From contig NZ_CP134876.1 of NCBI RefSeq assembly GCF_032108445.1, positions 6,758,001 to 6,822,000 of the forward strand: DNA of 64,000 nt, in the 5' to 3' direction. Positions within the stretch are counted from its first letter, which is position 1; each line of letters begins with the position of its first letter. Under the pieces are notes generated by a model. The model had not been told where the DNA came from and did not search any database. It saw only the letters and a program-made list of their open reading frames with translations. A program made the position numbers and the translations under genes. This document shows positions 3,409 through 46,015 of this stretch, one piece after another. The stretch is from Micromonospora halotolerans (GTDB lineage Bacteria; Actinomycetota; Actinomycetes; Mycobacteriales; Micromonosporaceae).

Positions 3409-3549
3409 GCTCGACCCCTTTCCAGCTCGGCCGCACGCATACCCGCACGACCCGGGATGTCACCTTCCGGACCGGGCCCGTGACCGCCGTTCATTCACGT
3501 CGTTCAACCCGGGGAATCGATACCATGAGTGAACACGACAGGACTCTCG

Positions 3550-7733: not shown

Positions 7734-9467
7734 TCAGAGCGCCACGATCGCGGCGGACTCCGGGGGCAGCTCGATGCCGTCGCGCATCACGGTGACCCCC
7801 TCGGACGTGGCGAGCAGCACGCGGCGCACCACGCCGGGCAGGTTGATGCGCTGCGCCTTGCCGGCCAGGTTCGCCACCACGAGGCAGCCGCCCCGCCGCA
7901 TCAGCAGGAACTGGTCGCCGTGGCGGACGTCGACCTGGCCGAGCCGGGGGTCGGACAGGTCGGGACGCTGCTTGCGCAGGGCGATGAGCCGCCGGTAGAA
8001 GTCGTACATCTCCCGGTGTTCGGGCTTGTCCAGCTCGGCCCAGTCGAGCCGGGAGCGGACGAAGGTCTGCGGGTCCTGCGGGTCGGGCACGTCCCCCGGC
8101 GGCCAGCCGTGCGCGGCGAACTCCCGCCGGCGCCCGGTCGCGACCGCGGTGGCCAGCTCGGGCTCGGGGTGACTGGTGAAGAACTGCCACGGCGTGCTGG
8201 CCGCCCACTCCTCCCCCATGAACAGCATCGGGGTGAAGGGCGCGGTCATCAGCAGGGTGGCGCCGACGCGCAGCAGCCCGGCGGAGAGCGTCTGGGAGAT
8301 CCGGTCCCCGGTGGCCCGGTTGCCGATCTGGTCGTGGTTCTGCAGGTACGCCACGAACCGGTGCCCCGGCGTGCGCTGCCGGTCGACGGGCCGGCCGTGG
8401 CTGCGGTTGCGGAAGCTCGACCAGGTGCCGGCGTGGAAGAACGCGCCGGTCAGCACGTCGGTCAGGCATTCGAGGGAGCCGAAGTCACCGTAGTAGCCCT
8501 GCCGTTCCCCGGTGAGCAGGGTGTGCAGCGCGTGGTGGGCGTCGTCGTTCCACTGGGCGTGCAGCCCGTACCCGCCGGCCTCCCGAGGGGTGATCAGCTT
8601 CGGGTCGTTCAGGTCGCTCTCGGCGATCAGCGACAGCGGCCGGCCCAGGTGGGTGGAGAGCGCCTCCACCTCGGCGGCCACCTCCTCCAGGACGTGGGTG
8701 GCCCGGGAGTCGGGCATGGCGTGCACGGCGTCCAGCCGAAGCCCGTCCACGTGGTAGTCGCGCAGCCACATGAGCACGCTGTCGACGATGTAGCGGCGTA
8801 CCCCGTCGGAGTGCGGCCCGTCCAGGTTGACCGTGCGGCCCCAGGTGTTGCTCTGCTCGGTGAGGTACGGCGCGAAGCGCGGCGCGTAGGCCCCGGAGGG
8901 CCCGAAATGGTTGTAGACGACGTCGAGGATCACCCCCAGCCCCTTGGCGTGCGCCGCGTCGACGAAACGCTTGAGCCCGTCCGGCCCGCCGTACGGCTCG
9001 TGCGGCGCGTACCAGCAGACCCCGTCGTAGCCCCAGTTGTGCTCGCCGTTGAAGGCGTTGACCGGGAGCAGCTCGACCAGGTCGACGCCGAGGTCGACCA
9101 GGTGGTCGAGGCGGCCGATCGCCGCGTCGAAGGTGCCCTCCGGGGTGAAGGTGCCGATGTGCAGCTCGTAGAGGACGCTGCCGGGCAGCTGCCGCCCGGT
9201 CCAGTCCTGGTCGGTCCAGCGGTACGCGGCATGGTCGTAGCGGCGGCTCGGCCCGTGCACGCCCTGCGGCTGCCAGGCCGACCGGGGGTCGGGCAGGACC
9301 TGCTCGTCGTCGTCGAGCAGGAACGCGTAGTCGGTGCCCGGCCCGGCGCCGGGCACCTCGACCCGCCACCAGCCGCCCGGCCCGGGGCGCATGTCGTGGT
9401 CGGCGACGCCGGGCAGGCGCAGCCGCACCCGGGCGGCTTCGGGCGCCCACACCGTGAACTCGGTCAT
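7734..9467 (-). CDS. treZ: Malto-oligosyltrehalose trehalohydrolase
   Basis: A 577-residue GH13 enzyme that releases trehalose from maltooligosyl-trehalose, the second step of the TreY-TreZ pathway. The N-terminal CBM48-like domain (about 1-90) starts MTEFTVWAPEAARVRL. The catalytic barrel has DGLRLDAVHAM (nucleophile near 243), LIAESDLN (acid/base near 281) and LQNHDQIGNRA (near 378), plus the TreZ-typical VELLPVNAFNGEHNWGYDG loop. Its ATG overlaps the treY stop by four bases (ATGA), so translation is coupled. It is the last gene of glgX-treY-treZ. Trehalose serves as a compatible solute and carbon store. Confidence 0.97.
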   Translation of the reverse strand: MTEFTVWAPEAARVRLRLPGVADHDMRPGPGGWWRVEVPGAGPGTDYAFLLDDDEQVLPDPRSAWQPQGVHGPSRRYDHAAYRWTDQDWTGRQLPGSVLYELHIGTFTPEGTFDAAIGRLDHLVDLGVDLVELLPVNAFNGEHNWGYDGVCWYAPHEPYGGPDGLKRFVDAAHAKGLGVILDVVYNHFGPSGAYAPRFAPYLTEQSNTWGRTVNLDGPHSDGVRRYIVDSVLMWLRDYHVDGLRLDAVHAMPDSRATHVLEEVAAEVEALSTHLGRPLSLIAESDLNDPKLITPREAGGYGLHAQWNDDAHHALHTLLTGERQGYYGDFGSLECLTDVLTGAFFHAGTWSSFRNRSHGRPVDRQRTPGHRFVAYLQNHDQIGNRATGDRISQTLSAGLLRVGATLLMTAPFTPMLFMGEEWAASTPWQFFTSHPEPELATAVATGRRREFAAHGWPPGDVPDPQDPQTFVRSRLDWAELDKPEHREMYDFYRRLIALRKQRPDLSDPRLGQVDVRHGDQFLLMRRGGCLVVANLAGKAQRINLPGVVRRVLLATSEGVTVMRDGIELPPESAAIVAL

Positions 9468-31063: not shown

Positions 31064-32569
31064 CTATGCGTCGGCTGTGGATCCCGGCAGCCGCACCGTG
31101 AACACGGTCCGGCCCGGTCGGCTCGCCACCGCGACCTCGCCGTGGTGGGCCTCCACCACGGCGGCCACGATGGCCAGGCCGAGGCCGGTGCTGCCGTGCG
31201 CCCGGGAGCGGGAGCTGTCGCCGCGGGCGAACCGCTCGAACACCTCGGGTTGCAGCTCTTCGGGGATGCCGGGGCCGTCGTCGCTGACGCTCAGCTCGAC
31301 GTCGCCGGCCACCGGCGCGAGGCGGGTGGTCACCGTGGTGCCGGGCGGGGTGTGCACGCGGGCGTTGGCGAGCAGGTTGGCCAGCACCTGGTGCAGCCGG
31401 TGGGCGTCGCCGGTGACGCTCACCGGCTCGTCGGGCAGGTCGAGCTGCCAGCGGTGCTCGGGGCCGGCCGCGTGCGCGTCGCTGACCGCGTTGACCACCA
31501 TGGCGGTGAGGTCGACCGGCTCGGTCGCGAGCGGGCGGCCGGAGTCGAGGCGGGCGAGCAGCAGCAGGTCGTCGACGAGGCTGGTCATTCGGGTGCTCTC
31601 CGACTCCACCCGGCGCAGGGCGTGTGCCACGTCCGGCGGCACCTCGTCCCGCCCACGCCGGGCCACCTCGGCGTAGCCGCGGATGGCGGCGAGGGGGGTA
31701 CGCAGCTCGTGGCTGGCGTCGGCGACGAACTGGCGTACCCGCGTCTCGCTGGCCTGCCGCGCGGCGAGCGCGGCGGCGACGTGGCCGAGCATCCGGTTGA
31801 GCGCGCCGCCGACCTGCCCGACCTCGGTGCGCGGGTCGGTGTCCGCCGCCGGCACCCGCACCGACAGGGCGACCTCGCCCCGGTCCAGCGGCAGCTCGGT
31901 GACCCGGCTGGCGGTGGCGGCGACCCGGTTCAGCGGGCGCAGCGCGGCCCGGACGATCAGCGCGCCGAGGCCGCCCGCGATGACCAGCCCGGCGGTGACG
32001 AGCCCGGCCTGGGCGACCAGCACCCACATGACCGTGTCCTGGATCCCGGCGAGTGGGATGGCGACGGCCCCCACCTCGCCGTTCGACGACCGATGGGCCA
32101 CCGCGCGATAGTCACCCCGGTCACCGACCTCGACGGTGCGGGGCCGCCCGTCGAGCGGTAGCGCGGCGAGCGCGGCGATGTCGGCTGCCGGCACCGTCTG
32201 CGCCTCTCCGGACTCGGTCCGGGCCGTGGCGCCGGTGGCTCCGCAGGCGGTACGCAGGGCGATCGAGCCGGGCGGGAAGCCGCGCGGCGGCTCCAGTGTC
32301 GACAGGTCGCACGGGTCCGTCCGACGCGGGTCACCGGGCGGACGCAGCCACGGCGGGCCGCCGCCGGCGCGCCCGTCGGCGATGGCGAGTTGGTTGTCCA
32401 CCTGGCCGACCAGGAAGTGCCGCAGGGCGATCGTGGTCAGGCCGCCGATGCCGATGCTGACCAGGGCCAGCAGCGCCACCACGGAGAGCACCAGGCGCCG
32501 GCGCAGCGACCACCCGGCCAGCCGCCGCCGGAGCCGCCCGCCCCGGTCACTCGGCGGGCTTGAGGACAT
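31064..32569 (-). CDS. Sensor histidine kinase
   Basis: A 501-residue membrane kinase. Helix 1 spans about 25-48 (LVLSVVALLALVSIGIGGLTT), an extracytoplasmic sensor of about 110 residues follows, helix 2 is about 178-205, then a HAMP domain. H-box FVADASHELRTPLAAIRGYAEVARR (His near 288), N-box QVLANLLANARVHTPPG, G1 SVSDDGPGIPEE, F-box VFERFARGD and G2 GLGLAIVAAVVEAHHG are all present. It belongs to the EnvZ/TrcS-like class of actinobacterial kinases. Its start overlaps the end of the response regulator gene by 23 bases, so the two form one operon with the regulator first. Confidence 0.93.
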   Translation of the reverse strand: MSSSPPSDRGGRLRRRLAGWSLRRRLVLSVVALLALVSIGIGGLTTIALRHFLVGQVDNQLAIADGRAGGGPPWLRPPGDPRRTDPCDLSTLEPPRGFPPGSIALRTACGATGATARTESGEAQTVPAADIAALAALPLDGRPRTVEVGDRGDYRAVAHRSSNGEVGAVAIPLAGIQDTVMWVLVAQAGLVTAGLVIAGGLGALIVRAALRPLNRVAATASRVTELPLDRGEVALSVRVPAADTDPRTEVGQVGGALNRMLGHVAAALAARQASETRVRQFVADASHELRTPLAAIRGYAEVARRGRDEVPPDVAHALRRVESESTRMTSLVDDLLLLARLDSGRPLATEPVDLTAMVVNAVSDAHAAGPEHRWQLDLPDEPVSVTGDAHRLHQVLANLLANARVHTPPGTTVTTRLAPVAGDVELSVSDDGPGIPEELQPEVFERFARGDSSRSRAHGSTGLGLAIVAAVVEAHHGEVAVASRPGRTVFTVRLPGSTADA

Positions 32570-33287
32570 AGCCCGCGCCGCGCAGGGTGTGGATCATGGG
32601 CTCGCGGCCCGCGTCGATCTTCTTCCGCAGGTACGAGATGTACAGCTCGACCACGTTGGCCTGGCCGCCGAAGTCGTAGTTCCAGACCCGGTCGAGGATC
32701 TGCGCCTTGCTCAGCACCCGGCGCGGGTTGCGCATGAGGTAGCGCAGCAGCTCGAACTCGGTGGCGGTGAGGTTGATGAGGTCGCCGCCGCGGCGTACCT
32801 CGTGGCTGTCCTCGTCGAGGCTGAGGTCGCCGACGGTGAGCACGGCCTCCTCGCGGGCGGCGACGGCGAACCCGGAGCGGCGCAGCAGGGCGCGCAGCCG
32901 GGCGATCACCTCTTCGAGGCTGAACGGCTTGGTGACGTAGTCGTCGCCGCCGACGGTGAGCCCGGCGATCCGCTCCTCGACCGCGTCCCGGGCGGTCAGG
33001 AAGAGCACCGGCACGGTGGGCGCCTGCTCGCGCAGCCGGCGCAGCACCTGGAAGCCGTCGAGGTCCGGGAGCATGACGTCGAGCACCACGGCGTCGGGCT
33101 TGACCTGCCGGGCGGCGCTGATCGCCGCCATCCCGTTGCCGGCGGTGGTGACCTGCCAGCCCTCGTAGCGCAGCGCCATCGAGAGCAGGTCGGTGAGCGT
33201 CGGCTCGTCGTCCACCACCAGCACCCGCACCGGTTCACCGTCCGGTCGGCGCAGCTCGATCCGGCCCTGCGCGGCCTGCCCGTTCAT
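32547..33287 (-). CDS. OmpR-family response regulator paired with the histidine kinase
   Basis: A regulator of about 246 residues. The receiver starts RVLVVDDEPTLTDLL, has the phosphoacceptor in AVVLDVMLPDLDG and the lysine in YVTKPFSLEEV; the winged helix (about 150-245) includes INLTATEFELLRYLMRNP and VELYISYLRKKIDAG, as in MprA/TrcR/PhoP types. Three in-frame ATGs occur at 33302, 33293 and 33287; the last is chosen because GGGGAG sits seven bases upstream. It is divergent from the SDR gene and co-transcribed with the kinase. The signal sensed is unknown. Confidence 0.9.
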   Translation of the reverse strand: MNGQAAQGRIELRRPDGEPVRVLVVDDEPTLTDLLSMALRYEGWQVTTAGNGMAAISAARQVKPDAVVLDVMLPDLDGFQVLRRLREQAPTVPVLFLTARDAVEERIAGLTVGGDDYVTKPFSLEEVIARLRALLRRSGFAVAAREEAVLTVGDLSLDEDSHEVRRGGDLINLTATEFELLRYLMRNPRRVLSKAQILDRVWNYDFGGQANVVELYISYLRKKIDAGREPMIHTLRGAGYVLKPAE

Positions 33288-33427
33288 GACCATGCTCCCC
33301 ATCGTGGGCGCACCCGCTGTGTCGGGCCTGTCCCGATCCTGTGTACCAGCTGTGCGGGTCGGCCGTCGCGATCCACGCTCACCGGACGGCCCTTCCCCCG
33401 CACGCTACCCGGTGGTAACTTGCCGGC

Positions 33428-39750: not shown

Positions 39751-40197
39751 TCAGGGGTGCTTGGGGAGCACGACCACCCGGCCGAAGAACTCGTCGATGC
39801 GGCGCACCACGTCGTTGAAGTCGTCCAGGTCGATCGGCTTCGTCACGTACGCGTTGGCCTGGAGGGTGTAGCTGCCGAGGATGTCGGTGTCGGCGTTGGA
39901 GGTGGTGAGCACGACGATCGGGATGGTGCGCAGGTCCTCGTCCCGCTTGACCTCGCCGAGCACCTGACGCCCGTCCATCCGCGGCATGTTCAGGTCGAGC
40001 AGGATGACGTCGGGACGCCGGGCCTCGGTGTGCCGGCCCTCGCGGCGGAGGAACTCCATCGCCTCCTGGCCGTCGTTGACCACGTCGATGACCTTCTCGA
40101 CGTCCGAGTCCTCGAGGGCTTCCTCGATCATCAGGACGTCACCCGGGTCGTCGTCCACCACCAGGATGCGAACGGGGCTCGGGGTGCCATGACCCAT
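39751..40197 (-). CDS. Stand-alone receiver-domain protein of the Rcp1 (phytochrome-partner) type
   Basis: A 148-residue response regulator without output domain. VRILVVDDDPGDVLMIEEAL, DVILLDLNMPRMDGRQVL (phosphoacceptor Asp), IPIVVLTTSNADTDI and NAYVTKPIDLDDFNDVVRRIDEFF follow the Rcp family pattern, whose founder Rcp1 accepts phosphate from the cyanobacterial phytochrome Cph1. Rcp-like proteins also pair with other kinases. No histidine kinase is nearby. ATG 40197 is chosen. It lies 72 bases after the STAS gene, downstream of the B12-binding protein and PP2C phosphatase, which makes a light-linked role attractive. Confidence 0.85.
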   Translation of the reverse strand: MGHGTPSPVRILVVDDDPGDVLMIEEALEDSDVEKVIDVVNDGQEAMEFLRREGRHTEARRPDVILLDLNMPRMDGRQVLGEVKRDEDLRTIPIVVLTTSNADTDILGSYTLQANAYVTKPIDLDDFNDVVRRIDEFFGRVVVLPKHP

Positions 40198-40269
40198 GGG
40201 ACTACCTGCTTCGTCTCGGGAGGCGGACGCCGACGGCGGGGTCGACGGCTGGCGGGGCAATCTATCCGA

Positions 40270-40617
40270 TCAGGAGGCGGCCGGCGTGGCCGGGTCGGCC
40301 ACCTGCGCCTCGTGGCTCAACACCTCGGCCAGCCCGGTCACCTGGAGCACCCGGGCCACCCGCCCGGTCGCCCCGGTGATCCGCAACCAGCCACCCGCCG
40401 CGGCGGCGAGATTGTCGCCGCGGACGAACGCGGCGATGCCGGTGGAATCGCAGAAGGTCAGCTCGGTGAGGTCCAGCAGGATCTCGCGGTGCCCCTCGGC
40501 GGCCAGCCGGTCGATGGCCGCGTTGAGCTCCGGCGCGGTGCCCAGGTCGAGCTCACCCTCGAGCCGCAGGCAGGCCGGAACGCCCTCCCGCTGGCCGTGC
40601 GTGACGGCGAACGTCAC
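40270..40617 (-). CDS. STAS-domain anti-sigma factor antagonist
   Basis: A 115-residue single STAS domain. LRLEGELDLGTAPELNAAI and ILLDLTELTFCDSTGIAAFV are typical; Ser58 in DSTG is the expected site that a partner-switch kinase phosphorylates and a PP2C phosphatase dephosphorylates. GTG 40617 is chosen because AGAGGGG lies upstream; the longer frame crosses the end of the previous gene. It is 86 bases after the B12-binding gene and probably in the same transcript, so the phosphatase encoded two genes upstream is its likely partner. Confidence 0.88.
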   Translation of the reverse strand: MTFAVTHGQREGVPACLRLEGELDLGTAPELNAAIDRLAAEGHREILLDLTELTFCDSTGIAAFVRGDNLAAAAGGWLRITGATGRVARVLQVTGLAEVLSHEAQVADPATPAAS

Positions 40618-40703
40618 CGTGGCCCCTCTCGCTCCGACCGCAGGCCAACCCTTGCAGTACGGCAAGTATACGCGGATCTCCCCGGCGTGCCCGCGCCCGG
40701 CGG

Positions 40704-41753
40704 TCACCGCCCCGGCGCGGCGGACAGCCCGCCGACCAGCGCGCGGGCCCGGTCGAGGAACCGGGCGGCCCGGGGGAAGTCGCGCAGCCGCTGTCCATAG
40801 TGGTCGAGGGTGAGCCCGACCGCACCCGCCGGGACCCGGCGGCTGACCAGGATCGCCACCAGCCACTCGACGAACTCGGTGAAGAGGGTCTCGTCATCGA
40901 CGTAGAGGGCGGCGGCGAGGAAGTCGATGATGTAGCCGAGGTCGCTGACGGTCGAGTCGAGCTGCGCCGGGGTGTAGTCGCGCACCCCGGGCACCCGCTC
41001 CCGCAGGTCCGCTAGGGCGCTGTCGATCAGCTCACCGCGCCGCTTGGCCAGGCTCGCGTACTCGTCGTCGGCGAGGTGGTCGAGCCGGGCCGGCGGCGCC
41101 GCCCGCAGCGCCCGCTCGTCGGCCACCAGGTCCGCCGCGGTCGGCGCGTCCGGCGCCCACGACACGCCGAGCACCCGGGCCCAGCGCCCGTCGCCGCCGA
41201 AGCCGCGCCCGCCGACCACCACCGGCACGTCCGAGCGGCGGCACGCCTCGATCATCCGGTGGGCGTGCGGCAGCCGCATCGGCAGCGCGCAGGCGAGAGC
41301 CACCGCGTGCGCGTCGTAGCGGTGCAGGTAGGACACCAGGTGCGCGGCGGGCACGCTCGCCCCGAGGAAGGTGATCTGCCAGCCGCGCAGCCGCAGCACC
41401 TCGGCCACCAACCGGGCCGGCAGGGCATGCCACTCACCGTCCATGCAGGCGACCACGATCCGGCCGCGGGTCGGGCGCGGATTCGCGTACGCGGCGACGG
41501 CCGCCACCACCCGCTCGCTGATGTGGGTGGCGGCGTGCTCCTGGGCCACGCTCCACTCGTCGCGCGCCCACCGCTCCCCCACCTCGGCCTGCGCCGGGGC
41601 GACCAGGTCCAGCAGCACCCGCTCGGCCGGCACGCCGGACTTCTGCAGCCCGGCCGCCACCTCGACCGCGGCGTGCTCGTCGGCCTCCGCCAGGCACTCC
41701 AGGTAGCCGGGGAAGGCCTGCGTCGGGCCGGCCTCCGTGGTCGTCGCGGTCAC
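40704..41753 (-). CDS. Stand-alone cobalamin-binding protein, candidate B12 photoreceptor
   Basis: A 349-residue protein without DNA-binding domain. A helical bundle (about 15-90) contains W62-x9-E72-H73, the Wx9EH signature of CarH-type photosensory B12 domains. The Rossmann B12 domain (about 97-220) has GEWHALP: His109 lies 36 residues after His73, matching the spacing of the axial histidine in CarH, with Glu107 two before it; VPVVVGGRGFGG is the later cobalamin loop. A further domain of about 120 residues, probably all helix (about 235-349), is not part of CarH and recalls photocobilins, where a bilin-binding domain follows the B12 domain. GTG 41753 overlaps the phosphatase stop by four bases. 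Confidence 0.85.
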   Translation of the reverse strand: MTATTTEAGPTQAFPGYLECLAEADEHAAVEVAAGLQKSGVPAERVLLDLVAPAQAEVGERWARDEWSVAQEHAATHISERVVAAVAAYANPRPTRGRIVVACMDGEWHALPARLVAEVLRLRGWQITFLGASVPAAHLVSYLHRYDAHAVALACALPMRLPHAHRMIEACRRSDVPVVVGGRGFGGDGRWARVLGVSWAPDAPTAADLVADERALRAAPPARLDHLADDEYASLAKRRGELIDSALADLRERVPGVRDYTPAQLDSTVSDLGYIIDFLAAALYVDDETLFTEFVEWLVAILVSRRVPAGAVGLTLDHYGQRLRDFPRAARFLDRARALVGGLSAAPGR

Positions 41754-43498
41754 GCGTCGGTCTCCCTCGTTCGCTCGGCGTCGGTCGGGCCGGGCACGGC
41801 GTGCAGGTGGCGGCCGGAACGGACCGGGTTGGCCGCCCGCAACGCGAGCACGGCGATGTCGTCGTGGTCGCCGTGGCCGAGCCAGTCGCAGGTCACCTGC
41901 TCGACGCGCTCGGCCAGCGCCGGTGCGGGCATCCGGTGGCAGCCGGTCACGGCGTGCACCAGCCGCTCGGGGCCGAACTGCTCGTCACCCCGCCGGCCGC
42001 CGCGCGCCTCGGTGACCCCGTCGCTGTAGAGCAGGCAGGTCTCGCCCGGCGCCAGGCGCACGGTCACCTCGCCGATGCGGGGATCCGGCACCACACCGAT
42101 CAGCATCCCGCTCAGCGGCACCACCTCGACCTCACCGGAGGCCCGCAGGACCAGGGGCGGGAGGTGGCCGCCGCCGGCCAGGGTCAGGGTGAGGCCGCCG
42201 TCGCGCTGCGGGCGCACCACGCCCAGCACGACGGTGGCGAACCGGCCCTGCCCGTTCGCCTGGGTGGTCTCCAGCAACGCGTCGTTGAGCAGCTTCAGCA
42301 GCCGGCCCGGCTGCGACTCGACCCGGTGCAGCGCCTGCAGGCACTGGCGGAGCTGGCCGGTGAACACGGCCGCCTCGACGCCCTTGCCGGAGACGTCGCC
42401 GAGGAAGAAGACCGAGCCGCCGTCGACGAGCCGGTGCGAGCCGTAGAAGTCCCCGCCGATCCGCAGCCCGGCCTGCGCCGGCCGGTAGGCGGTCCCCCAC
42501 TGCACGCCGGGGGCCGCCGCCGGCTCGACGGGCAGGAGGCTGGCCTGGAGGGTGTCGGCGACCTCGGCCTGGTCGCGGTAGAGCAGCGCGGTGGTGAGCG
42601 CGGCGCCGGCCCGGGCCGCGAACGCGCGGACCAGGTCGAGGTCGGCGTCGTCGTACCAGCGGTCGGCCCGGCGGGCGACCAGCAGCACCCCGGCCGGGGC
42701 CTCCCGACCGGGCAACGGCACCACCCGCGCGGTGACGCCGGCCGCGTCGAGACCGGGCAGCCAGCCCGCCTCGACGGCCTGCTCCACCAGCCAGTCCAGG
42801 GCGTGCGGCTCGACACCGCCGAGCCCCTCCCCGATCGCCGACGGCAGCGCCGCGGCGGCGAGCACGCCGCTGTCCACGGCGGGCGCCTCGTCGTCCGCGC
42901 GCACGGCCCGCCACCAGCGGGCCCGGCCGGAGCGCGGGGTCAGCACCAGCACGGCGACGTCGGCCACGGTCGGCACGGCCAGCCGGACCACCGCGGCGGC
43001 GGCCCGGTCGGGGTGCAGGGGGTTGCCGAGCTTCTCGCCGACCACGGCGAGGAACGCCGAGCGGGCCCGCTCGGCGAGCAGCGCGTCGGCCCGGCTGACG
43101 CTCTCGGTGACGTCCTCGACATACCAGCAGCGGCGGCCGGCGGAGAGCCCGACCCGGCGCAGGCGCAGTCGCCGGCCGTGGTGGGTGAACTCGCCCGGGT
43201 CGTCACCGCACAGGGCGGGCACGCCGGCCGCGGCGAGCACCTCGCCCGGCACCACCTCGGGAACCAGCCGCTCGGCGACCGGGCTGAGGTGCCGCACCAC
43301 GCCGTCGGCGTCGCAGACGATCAGACCCTCGCGGAAGTGCTCCACGACCTCCGACCAGTCGGGGGTGGCCGGGCCACGGTCCGGGGCCAGGGGCGGCAGG
43401 GCCGGCGCGGCGGGCGACCACGCCCGAGCCCGTCTGGCACTCGGCGTGGAGATCCGTCCGTCGCCCGGGTCAGCGCCCCTGACGTCGGCAGCAGTCAC
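41750..43498 (-). CDS. PAS-GAF-PP2C (SpoIIE-type) serine phosphatase
   Basis: A 582-residue cytoplasmic phosphatase from GTG 43498. A PAS-like domain (about 45-135: LIVCDADGVVRHLSPVAERLVP), a GAF domain (about 150-320) and a PPM/SpoIIE domain (about 335-560) are visible. Metal-binding motifs GGDFYGSHRL (near 350), LGDVSGKGVEAAVF (near 366), LYSDGVTEARGG (near 493) and GDHDDIAVLAL (near 546) are complete, so it should be active. Such enzymes dephosphorylate STAS anti-anti-sigma factors and release a sigma factor. Its stop overlaps the B12-binding gene (GTGA), tying the two in translation. No chromophore cysteine for bilins is obvious in the GAF domain. Confidence 0.9.
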   Translation of the reverse strand: MTAADVRGADPGDGRISTPSARRARAWSPAAPALPPLAPDRGPATPDWSEVVEHFREGLIVCDADGVVRHLSPVAERLVPEVVPGEVLAAAGVPALCGDDPGEFTHHGRRLRLRRVGLSAGRRCWYVEDVTESVSRADALLAERARSAFLAVVGEKLGNPLHPDRAAAAVVRLAVPTVADVAVLVLTPRSGRARWWRAVRADDEAPAVDSGVLAAAALPSAIGEGLGGVEPHALDWLVEQAVEAGWLPGLDAAGVTARVVPLPGREAPAGVLLVARRADRWYDDADLDLVRAFAARAGAALTTALLYRDQAEVADTLQASLLPVEPAAAPGVQWGTAYRPAQAGLRIGGDFYGSHRLVDGGSVFFLGDVSGKGVEAAVFTGQLRQCLQALHRVESQPGRLLKLLNDALLETTQANGQGRFATVVLGVVRPQRDGGLTLTLAGGGHLPPLVLRASGEVEVVPLSGMLIGVVPDPRIGEVTVRLAPGETCLLYSDGVTEARGGRRGDEQFGPERLVHAVTGCHRMPAPALAERVEQVTCDWLGHGDHDDIAVLALRAANPVRSGRHLHAVPGPTDAERTRETDA

Positions 43499-43703
43499 CA
43501 GCTGAGCCCCACTCCTGTCGATACCCGCGGTCCCCGCGAAACGGCGCGTATGGTCAAATCTTCCTTCGCCCACCCTACGCCGGTGCACCGGTACCGCCAC
43601 CCCACGCTCATGCCATGGCCTGCGGACGCGCCATCCGGCGGGGCGGTCGGGAGGTTGTTACGATCCGGGCGACCCGGCCCGACCGGCAGCCGCGAAAGGC
43701 GTG

Positions 43704-44087
43704 ATGGTGGCACCCCGACGGAGAACACCCGAGGCGACGCCCCTGCGCATCTCCGTGGACCGTTCCGACCCCACCGCGCCGGCCGTCCGGATCGGCGGGG
43801 ACCTCGCCTTCACCACGGCCGCCCCGCTGCGCACCGAGGTGGACCGGCTGCTGGCCCAGACCCCGCAGACGCTCGTGCTGGACTTCCGCGACCTGCTCTT
43901 CATCGACAGCACCGGCCTGTCGTTGATCGTCCACGCCTGGCGGGACGGCCAGCGGGGCGGCACGGCCATCCAGCTCCGGGAGACCCCCCGCTTCCTGGCC
44001 ACCATCCTCGACATGACCGGGGTCGCCGGCCTGCTGTCCCGGCCGCAGCCCGACCGGCCGACGACCGGCCCGTCCGCCCGTGTCTGA
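43704..44087 (+). CDS. STAS-domain anti-sigma factor antagonist
   Basis: A 127-residue STAS protein. VRIGGDLAFTTAAPLRTEVDRLL and LVLDFRDLLFIDSTGLSLIV show the fold, with Ser69 in DSTG as the probable phosphorylation site. Three nested starts occur (GTG 43701, ATG 43704, GTG 43707); GAAAGG lies just upstream. It is divergent from the PP2C-B12 operon, and its stop nearly meets the second plus-strand STAS gene, so the two STAS genes are likely co-transcribed. Confidence 0.88.
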   Translation: MVAPRRRTPEATPLRISVDRSDPTAPAVRIGGDLAFTTAAPLRTEVDRLLAQTPQTLVLDFRDLLFIDSTGLSLIVHAWRDGQRGGTAIQLRETPRFLATILDMTGVAGLLSRPQPDRPTTGPSARV

Positions 44088-44133
44088 GCACCCTGGGCTT
44101 TGCGGGGCCGGCTCGAGCTGGAAACATGGCGGC

Positions 44134-44481
44134 ATGCGCCCGCAGCTGTTGACCATCGAGGTGGACCGGCTCGACGCCGGACGTGCCCGGCTTCGGCTGA
44201 CCGGCGAGCTGGACTTCGACACCGCGCCGGAACTCGTCGCCGCCGCCGCCGAGCTGCGCCGCGACGGCTGCCGGGAGCTGCTCCTCGACTTCTCCGCCGT
44301 GGCGCTCTGCGACTCCTCCGGCCTCAGCGCCCTGGTCGTCATCCACCGTGCCGGCGCCGGCCCGGTGCGGCTGGACGCCGTGAGCCCCCAGGTGCGGCAG
44401 CTGCTCGACCGCACCGGGCTGGCCGAGCTGCTGGCCGTCCCGCCCGCCGGGGAGACGGCGGCGACCCGCGACGTCGGCTGA
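44134..44481 (+). CDS. STAS-domain anti-sigma factor antagonist
   Basis: A 115-residue STAS protein from ATG 44134. LTIEVDRL, LRLTGELDFDTAPELVAAAAEL and LLLDFSAVALCDSSGLSALVVI give the fold, with Ser61 or Ser62 in DSSG as phosphorylation site. A GTG at 44080 overlapping the previous stop would add 18 poorly conserved-looking residues. It is the third STAS protein within 4.2 kb. A terminator-like hairpin follows. Confidence 0.87.
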   Translation: MRPQLLTIEVDRLDAGRARLRLTGELDFDTAPELVAAAAELRRDGCRELLLDFSAVALCDSSGLSALVVIHRAGAGPVRLDAVSPQVRQLLDRTGLAELLAVPPAGETAATRDVG

Positions 44482-45040: not shown

Positions 45041-46015
45041 ATGCGCAAGCAGATGGAGGGCGACAACCAGCGCCGCCGGGCTCTGGCCCGGGACGCCCGG
45101 GGACGCGGTCGGCTTCCCAGCCAGACCGGCGCCAGCCTGAGCGCGTCCAAGCAGATCACCTCGCTGGACCGAGGCGAACGGTCCGGCCCGCCGCCGGCCG
45201 GCCGGCGCAAGCCGGACACGACGCGCGGCGGTCCCGCCCCGCCGCCCGCGGCCGTGGCGGAGCGCCCGCGCCCGCTGCCCGACGAGCGGCCGGCCCCGGT
45301 GACCACCCTGGGCTACCGGGACCTCGTCGGCGACGTGAGCCGGCGGGCGGGAGTCGACTTCGCCACCGCCAAGGTGGCGGCGGAGGCGACCGTGCTCGCG
45401 CTGGCCCGGGCGCTCGACGAGACCGAGCGGGAACGGCTGCTCGAGGCGGTGCCGGTGAAGCTGCACGACGTGGTGCCGGTCGACGGGCTCGCGCGGCGGC
45501 ACGATTTGCCCGGCTTCCTCGCCGAGGTGGGCCGGCGCAGCCGGCTGACGCCGGAACAGGCCCGCTACCAGGCGCAGGCCACCCTGGCCGCGCTGGCCGA
45601 CGCGGACGGCGAACTCGTCGAGTCGCTGCGCGTACCGGACGGGTTGCAGGACCTGCTCCCGCCGCCGCCGGCGGTCGGCGGCGGCCTGGTGGGCGCGACG
45701 TCCGCCACCGCCCCGCTGGACGAGGCGGAACTGCGCGACGCGCTCGGCCGGCTGCCGTACTGGTCCAGCGACCGGCAGTCGCTGGTGCGCACCATCGAGC
45801 TGCCGAACGGCAACCTGGACCGGGTGCTCGACCGGCTCGACCAGCTCCGGGGCGAGACCGGGCGCGGCCCGCAGATCGGCCGTCCCGGCCCGGACAGCGC
45901 CGTGCTCACCGTGCGCAGCCAGCAGGTCGACGGGGTGACGGCGGCGGACGTGGACCTGGCCCGGCGGGTCGACGACGCCATCGACGAGGCCGGCGCCGGG
46001 ATGAACGCCGGCTGA
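45041..46015 (+). CDS. DUF2267 protein fused to a degenerate pterin-dehydratase-like domain
   Basis: A 324-residue protein. The first 40 residues (MRKQMEGDNQRRRALARDAR...) are basic and of a kind often seen in actinobacteria. A DUF2267 domain (about 88-190, TTLGYRDLVGDVSRRAGVDF) follows. The C-terminal part (about 225-320: LDEAELRDALGRLPYWSSD, NGNLDRVLDRLDQL, VDGVTAADVDLARRVDDAI) resembles pterin-4a-carbinolamine dehydratase, but the catalytic HHP-type histidines are absent, so enzymatic activity is doubtful. I infer a structural or binding role. A strong terminator follows. Confidence 0.65.
   Translation: MRKQMEGDNQRRRALARDARGRGRLPSQTGASLSASKQITSLDRGERSGPPPAGRRKPDTTRGGPAPPPAAVAERPRPLPDERPAPVTTLGYRDLVGDVSRRAGVDFATAKVAAEATVLALARALDETERERLLEAVPVKLHDVVPVDGLARRHDLPGFLAEVGRRSRLTPEQARYQAQATLAALADADGELVESLRVPDGLQDLLPPPPAVGGGLVGATSATAPLDEAELRDALGRLPYWSSDRQSLVRTIELPNGNLDRVLDRLDQLRGETGRGPQIGRPGPDSAVLTVRSQQVDGVTAADVDLARRVDDAIDEAGAGMNAG

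Follow-up and report, generated by a model that had tools for sequence, protein, structure and literature searches.

The window analysed here is a stretch of 64,000 nucleotides from the genome of the soil actinomycete Micromonospora halotolerans (contig NZ_CP134876.1, positions 6,758,001 to 6,822,000), and the coordinates below refer to it unless another locus is named. On its minus strand, the gene of a SpoIIE/PP2C-type serine phosphatase (hereafter PP2C, 41750..43498) directly precedes the gene of a photocobilin (hereafter Pcob, 40704..41753), a protein of 349 amino acids (aa) with B12-binding_2 and B12-binding domains and a C-terminal photoglobin domain. We propose with moderate confidence that the phosphatase and a trans-acting Pcob form a two-gene light-input unit to partner switching, in which the photoreceptor would set the activity of the phosphatase. 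Because the pairing is kept across many actinomycetes, it probably serves the control of gene-expression programmes by light. At the level of sequence, this proposal is built on gene order, protein families, residues, linkage and co-inheritance.

Linkage of the phosphatase and photocobilin genes

The stop codon of PP2C and the start codon of Pcob share 4 bp (GTGA, 41750..41753, minus strand), as already noticed in a preliminary description of this DNA, and the overlap makes translational coupling of the two genes probable. The same description had suggested a neighbourhood survey of the homologues of the 349-aa protein. This survey, made with profiles built from the window proteins and run on six-frame open reading frames (ORFs) of fetched loci, revealed a strongly conserved linkage to PP2C and a frequent one to STAS genes. 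The loci were taken in groups that overlap in genomes: 80 named loci, which are the best 80 of 515 relatives and hence favour close relatives, 20 genus orthologues selected from 49 Pcob-positive genomes, nine genus paralogues, 60 loci of the order outside the genus, and a further set of ten loci from families f2 and f4. The 60 order loci come from 67 non-genus loci, of which five more stand in the further set and two (G529 and G592) were left out.

PP2C was found directly upstream of Pcob and on the same strand at all 80 named loci (in L325 as a cut piece only), all 20 genus orthologues, all nine genus paralogues, all ten loci of the further set and 54 of the 60 order loci, which amounts to 173 of the 179 loci outside the window in these linked groups. 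In contrast, none of the 20 loci surveyed elsewhere in the phylum has an upstream same-strand PP2C, L114 having one within 5 kb. Six of these 20 loci (L114-L119) match the B12 part only and are without photoglobin, as is L120, the genome's own second B12 protein. The M. halotolerans genome, which is one contig and 99.99% complete, contains 19 SpoIIE matches in 6.96 Mb, this phosphatase being one of them, and such a density set against pairing at 173 of 179 loci and at none elsewhere in the phylum indicates that the arrangement is not due to chance. The named linked loci include Micromonospora, Streptomyces, Mycobacterium and Streptosporangiaceae.

A start codon allowing the 4-bp overlap is present at 72 of the 80 named loci, in 20/20 genus orthologues, 9/9 paralogues and 9/10 loci of the further set, and in 35 of the 54 linked order pairs. 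Pcob is closely followed by a STAS gene at 60 of the 80 named loci, 19 of the 20 genus orthologues, seven of the ten further loci and 31 of the 60 order loci, and no STAS gene was found within 4 kb at the nine genus paralogue loci.

Identification of Pcob as a photocobilin

The preliminary description had presented the partner of the phosphatase as a stand-alone B12-binding protein with CarH-type photosensory residues. All the residues checked are present, but the protein is not a bare B12 domain: it also carries a photoglobin domain, which had been missed. In a sequence search of solved structures, Pcob matched SasPcob (8j2w/8j2x) with an E value of 7e-102 (query 18-339, chain 11-332; 56% identity over 321 columns) and AbDPcob (8j2y) with an E value of 1.4e-46 (162 bits), whereas CarH chains reached only ~1e-10, over the B12 part alone. 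Against the CarH family NF052513, Pcob scored 61.7 bits, far under the 400-bit cut-off, and no match to a DNA-binding helix-turn-helix domain of the MerR type was found in it with Pfam. The C-terminal photoglobin domain and the near end-to-end match to SasPcob hence identify Pcob as a photocobilin rather than a bare CarH-type domain.

The available text of PMC10979010 assigns seven residues of SasPcob to the lower ligand, the adenosyl pocket or the contacts with biliverdin. The seven cofactor residues of the window Pcob are W62, E72, H73, H109, H138, D271 and W297, and the same seven occur in 20/20 genus orthologues. The adenosyl group is held by the Trp and the Glu-His, which do not vary across 34 aligned rows; of 61 fetched or window rows, 60 have them, the exception being L120. 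Pcob has a predicted bilin pocket and, from these residues, would be a light sensor using B12 and probably also a bile pigment. In some Pcob matches (L234 and those in G649, G776, G520 and G465), the reading frame is interrupted by a single in-frame stop or broken into two frames, possibly reflecting sequencing errors, decayed genes or matches that run past the gene end.

Co-inheritance and phosphatase lineage

Among 61 genomes of the genus, Pcob was detected in 49 and the orthologous phosphatase, taken as at least 72% identity among the matches listed (the next group reaching at most 46%), in exactly those 49, so that 12 genomes have neither. A tree was also calculated from 119 PP2C domains, comprising 99 of the 174 linked pairs, 17 of the 18 other SpoIIE matches of the genome and three second phosphatases of paralogue loci. 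All 99 linked phosphatases fall into one clade (99/97 support) with a single other member, L254, in a drawing that is midpoint-rooted, with some long-branched outgroup rows and an outgroup nearly confined to the window's genome.

L254 belongs to the genome's own paralogue locus, a duplicated locus without a Pcob gene. At this locus (L348, G000:C1:3677500-3684500), ~1.03 kb is missing at ~3510-3529 compared with L087, which has Pcob at 8172-9089 where the window's genome has the gap, and two phosphatase genes lie side by side. The paralogous unit at L081-L089 consists of PP2C, Pcob and a second PP2C. Its Pcob, found in some genomes of the genus, has lost the biliverdin Asp (V, A or G) in 9/9 loci and has kept the B12 residues that were checked.

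Architecture and upstream region of the phosphatase

The phosphatase is composed of an N-terminal sensory region, a coil-like linker and a C-terminal SpoIIE domain (Pfam E value 9.5e-43) in which the metal-site motifs GGDFY, GDVSGKG, SDGVTEA and HDD are all present. Of the PAS-GAF-PP2C architecture proposed at the outset, the SpoIIE-type PP2C part thus holds, the GAF part is reduced to a weak Pfam match below threshold (GAF_3, 21.1 bits, cut-off 27), and PAS found no Pfam match in the N-terminus. Conservation of the linker is close to that of the phosphatase domain (0.61 vs 0.63 across 38 rows of linked phosphatases, with domain limits set by eye).

The start of the phosphatase had been placed at the GTG at 43600, which would give 616 aa. 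The GTG at 43498 (582 aa) is the probable start instead, because a start codon occupies this position in 23/23 aligned upstream regions (20 genus orthologues, L188, L189 and the window), being GTG in 22 and TTG in one (L061). A ribosome-binding-like GGAGTGG accompanies this start, and further upstream lies a promoter-like block (43560..43605, minus strand), which in the window reads GGTGGC, an 18-bp spacer and TAGGGT (ACCCTA at 43572-43577 on the plus strand). Its consensus, GCGTAGGGTGG, is found in 19 of the 23 aligned upstream regions, and we infer from this conservation that the block is a candidate promoter of the PP2C-Pcob operon. Autoregulation of the operon by SigB/F was considered and rejected, as only a few relatives have the GTTT-N12-GGGTAT-like site that precedes PP2C in the window.

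STAS and receiver genes of the locus

All six genes of the locus were confirmed in the window by sequence and Pfam, in the arrangement first reported: a STAS gene and an Rcp1-type receiver gene follow Pcob, and two STAS genes are divergent. STAS1 (40270..40620, minus strand) is of the anti-anti-sigma type (STAS E value 6e-17; TIGR00377 68.3 bits, cut-off 53.45) and has a DSTG phospho-acceptor motif (Ser59). The receiver gene (39751..40197, minus strand) encodes an Rcp1-like single-domain protein of 148 aa (Response_reg E value 1.6e-21), which probably starts at ATG 40197, TTG 40260 being a possible alternative. Only 83 bases separate the end of Pcob from the start of STAS1, and 72 bases separate the end of STAS1 from the receiver ATG; these short gaps make it likely that the minus-strand genes form one operon. 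On the plus strand, STAS2 (43701..44087; STAS E value 2.2e-12) has a DSTG motif and STAS3 (44080..44481; STAS_2 E value 5.5e-13) a DSSG motif, and such divergent STAS genes are usual at genus loci. When read from GTG 44080, STAS3 overlaps STAS2, and it may start at ATG 44134. All three STAS proteins therefore carry the phosphorylatable Ser motif of the anti-anti-sigma proteins of partner switching. Across the six products, the motifs sought (PP2C metal site, STAS serine, receiver Asp/Thr/Lys and photocobilin cofactor residues) are intact.

Among solved structures, the receiver is closest to 5te9 (E value 4.5e-40), RcpA (1.3e-35) and Rcp1 (6e-34), and its receiver Asp, Thr and Lys are kept. It was found beside the operon at 20/20 genus orthologues, where it lies downstream, and at 47 of the 80 named loci, and at none of the 60 order, ten further and nine paralogue loci. 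Its adjacency is a feature of the genus-level version of the operon only, and the analogy with Rcp1-phytochrome pairs that had been drawn from it fails in this genome, which has no match to the PHY domain (PF00360) at E ≤ 0.001.

Near the operon, positions 45041-46015 encode a protein joining DUF2267 and a pterin-4a-carbinolamine dehydratase-like domain. On the minus strand of the window, an OmpR-type response regulator (32547-33302) lies beside a HAMP-HisKA histidine kinase (31064-32569), and in many loci of the genus the distance between the OmpR-type regulator and Pcob is similar (~4.5-8.5 kb).

Fuller clusters with a sigma gene

At L233, L236 and L239, which represent three genomes of one genus (g254, family f88), PP2C-Pcob-STAS is preceded by a SigBFG-like sigma gene and by a STAS gene, both within ~4 kb of Pcob. 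The pairing of an f88 row with an Allokutzneria row in the PP2C tree makes it probable that family f88 is Pseudonocardiaceae. For L239, Pfam confirmed sigma-70 regions 2, 3 and 4, STAS, HATPase_c_2, GAF-SpoIIE, B12 and STAS, and the ATPase-like frames of L233 and L236 were recognised by eye only, the profile having missed them. Because of a short reverse-strand ORF between the sigma and STAS genes, the gene sets of L233 and L236 are clusters rather than proven operons. The RsbW-like frame before the L239 sigma gene matches an HATPase_c_2 locus of the window's genome (42%, E value 7e-19). Orthology to the sigma factor of the L239 cluster picks no single target among the four SigBFG factors of this genome, which all show much the same identity to it (43-47%).

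Proposed mechanism

In the mechanism that we infer, which extends from the photochemistry, the contact, the light dependence and the regulatory sign to the STAS substrate, the sigma output and the role of the receiver, Pcob would bind adenosylcobalamin (AdoCbl) in the dark, together with biliverdin if available, and form a dimer. On illumination, the Co-C bond would be cleaved and the adenosyl group lost, with a shift in the oligomeric state of Pcob. Pcob would directly contact the N-terminal sensory region or the linker of the phosphatase encoded by the adjacent gene and set its activity, an action that can be likened to that of RsbQ on RsbP and of RsbT on RsbU. The phosphatase would dephosphorylate the Ser of STAS1, and possibly those of STAS2 and STAS3, after which STAS1 would sequester an anti-sigma kinase whose gene lies elsewhere, thereby releasing a SigB/F-type sigma factor. 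The Micromonospora operon has gained a phosphorelay receiver.

An action on the N-terminal region or linker is favoured by the conservation of the linker and by precedents for regulation in trans. The available text of PMC10979010 reports that isolated, light-adapted photocobilins act in trans on a diguanylate cyclase and change its activity, probably through contact between the proteins. On this foreign cyclase, SasPcob is reported to activate in the dark without biliverdin and in the light with biliverdin. In PMC12143880, activation of the phosphatase RsbU is attributed to RsbT, which orders the RsbU linkers into a coiled coil, and evidence is given that related linkers serve diverse sensors.

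Counter-evidence and alternative explanations

Several observations weigh against the proposed light-input unit. Gene linkage alone is not proof of contact or of light dependence, no PP2C-Pcob fusion protein was found among the surveyed loci, and six of the 60 order loci (L207, L224, L231, L237, L238 and L247) have Pcob without an upstream PP2C. The paralogous phosphatase is present in 43 of the 61 genus genomes and the Pcob paralogue in only 12 of them, two as partial matches, which indicates that this phosphatase can do without Pcob. Within 7 kb of Pcob, the window showed neither an anti-sigma-type ATPase nor a sigma gene in a search whose ATPase profile also missed the frames in L233 and L236. 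The sole HATPase_c_2 match of the window (31.1-31.4 kb, below the cut-off) is the ordinary HisKA histidine kinase beside the OmpR-type regulator. The nearest SigBFG factor is ~42 kb away, in a genome with 51 HATPase_c_2 matches (34 over the cut-off) and four SigBFG sigma factors over the cut-off, and the better-conserved block upstream of PP2C resembles an ordinary promoter, not a SigB/F-like one. Finally, the genome has no match to heme oxygenase PF01126, which makes the supply of biliverdin doubtful.

The genome holds one weak DUF2470 match (30.1 bits), a possible HugZ-type candidate. Within the genus, heme oxygenase is patchy, occurring in 16 of 61 genomes, all of them among the 49 Pcob-positive ones (Fisher p 0.026; p 0.19 for the 10 strong matches); the other 33 Pcob-positive genomes have no match, and the bilin contacts are kept in the 20 orthologues checked. 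With neither a heme oxygenase nor a PHY match in the M. halotolerans genome, operation with AdoCbl only, an unusual source of biliverdin or an outside bilin have to be considered. A broader reading, which we regard as speculative and unlikely, is that actinomycete standalone photocobilins serve as light switches dedicated, in trans, to a single co-inherited phosphatase lineage. They would then give partner switching a general light input whose sign is set by bilin supply and, given the patchiness of heme oxygenase, otherwise similar operons could answer light oppositely in sister species.

The stressosome includes RsbR, a STAS protein. Photoglobins are regarded as homologues of its globin domain in the available text of PMC10151467, and a STAS gene follows Pcob at 60/80 named and 31/60 order loci, both of which would suit an action of Pcob on the STAS protein(s) or the receiver, with the phosphatase merely co-transcribed. 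Such a role is distinctly improbable, as PP2C is the more constant neighbour (80/80 vs 60/80 named loci, 54/60 vs 31/60 order loci), the genus paralogue loci keep PP2C in 9/9 cases and a STAS gene within 4 kb in 0/9, and the receiver is adjacent in the genus only. Hence, of the two targets initially offered for the B12 protein, the phosphatase is favoured as a near-constant partner over STAS, a frequent one.

The hosts are non-phototrophic, as might be expected if the unit sensed cobalamin availability or the redox state of the cofactor and its photosensitivity were incidental. The available text of PMC10979010 also reports that apo- and AdoCbl-bound AbDPcob differ in activity even in the dark. 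We nevertheless consider this function improbable, because the Trp and Glu-His holding the photolabile adenosyl group are invariant in the 34 aligned rows and found in all but L120 of the 61 fetched or window rows. A phosphoserine switch without a sigma factor, exerting STAS-dependent control of another target or acting on another phosphoprotein, seems rather unlikely. It would agree with the lack of a detected sigma or anti-sigma gene at the window locus, with the 0/9 genus paralogue loci having STAS within 4 kb and with a genome rich in HATPase_c_2 proteins, whereas at the three loci of another genus Pcob has STAS genes and a SigBFG-like sigma gene within ~4 kb. Light input through the phosphatase to partner switching thus remains the explanation that we prefer.

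Comparison with known systems

YtvA and related LOV-STAS proteins provide light input to the stressosome and sigma-B. There, as proposed here, light feeds partner switching, but through a flavin LOV domain fused to STAS instead of a B12/bilin protein and a phosphatase. The CarH/LitR repressors have in common with Pcob a CarH-like B12 module (61.7 bits with NF052513), from which Pcob is set apart by the lack of a DNA-binding domain match, a score under the 400-bit cut-off and an extra photoglobin domain.

The preliminary description knew of no system with this gene set, and no published description of the operon was found in the literature searched, the supplements of PMC10979010 and the photoglobin paper PMC8717448 being outside that search; a gene-neighbourhood figure in either may already show part of the operon. 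The system is not wholly undescribed, since STAS, SpoIIE and PP2C links were predicted for SasPcob from interaction networks in the available text of PMC10979010, where Micromonospora yangpuensis appears in the network analysis. Within the literature searched, and as far as it could be read, the near-constant phosphatase partner, the fuller clusters, the Micromonospora receiver and the patchy heme oxygenase are new.

The RsbQ-RsbP pair of the B. subtilis sigma-B pathway likewise consists of adjacent genes encoding a soluble sensor and a PP2C with an N-terminal sensory region and a coil linker, and 45 adjacent pairs of RsbQ and RsbP-PAS homologues, with phosphatase, kinase or cyclase outputs, are reported in the available text of PMC3183031. 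RsbQ is an alpha/beta hydrolase that acts via PAS, whereas the partner is a photocobilin here and PAS is unconfirmed; the two may work alike without being the same module. AbDPcob (8J2Y) has the same sensor module, and light raises the turnover of its output more than 10-fold (PMC10979010, available text). It differs by its fused diguanylate cyclase, as opposed to a separate phosphatase, and by a His in place of Asp270, the Asp being kept here.

SasPcob (8J2W/8J2X), a standalone photocobilin of Saccharothrix, shares with Pcob the AdoCbl pocket (W61, E71, H72 and H108) and the bilin contacts (H137, D270 and W296). In the available text of PMC10979010, no test of a cognate phosphatase is reported for SasPcob, no operon is described (the word "operon" has 0 hits in the main text) and the function of standalone photocobilins is called "less clear", whereas here the partner gene is surveyed and a receiver is added. 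If the proposal is true, B12/bilin light sensing would feed phosphoserine partner switching in Micromonospora, Streptomyces, Mycobacterium and Streptosporangiaceae, so that light could reach stress or developmental programmes, and the pair would provide a natural two-protein optogenetic switch for a phosphatase. Standalone photocobilins were tried on a foreign cyclase (PMC10979010, available text), and the survey names a specific, conserved and testable partner for them, the phosphatase encoded directly upstream.

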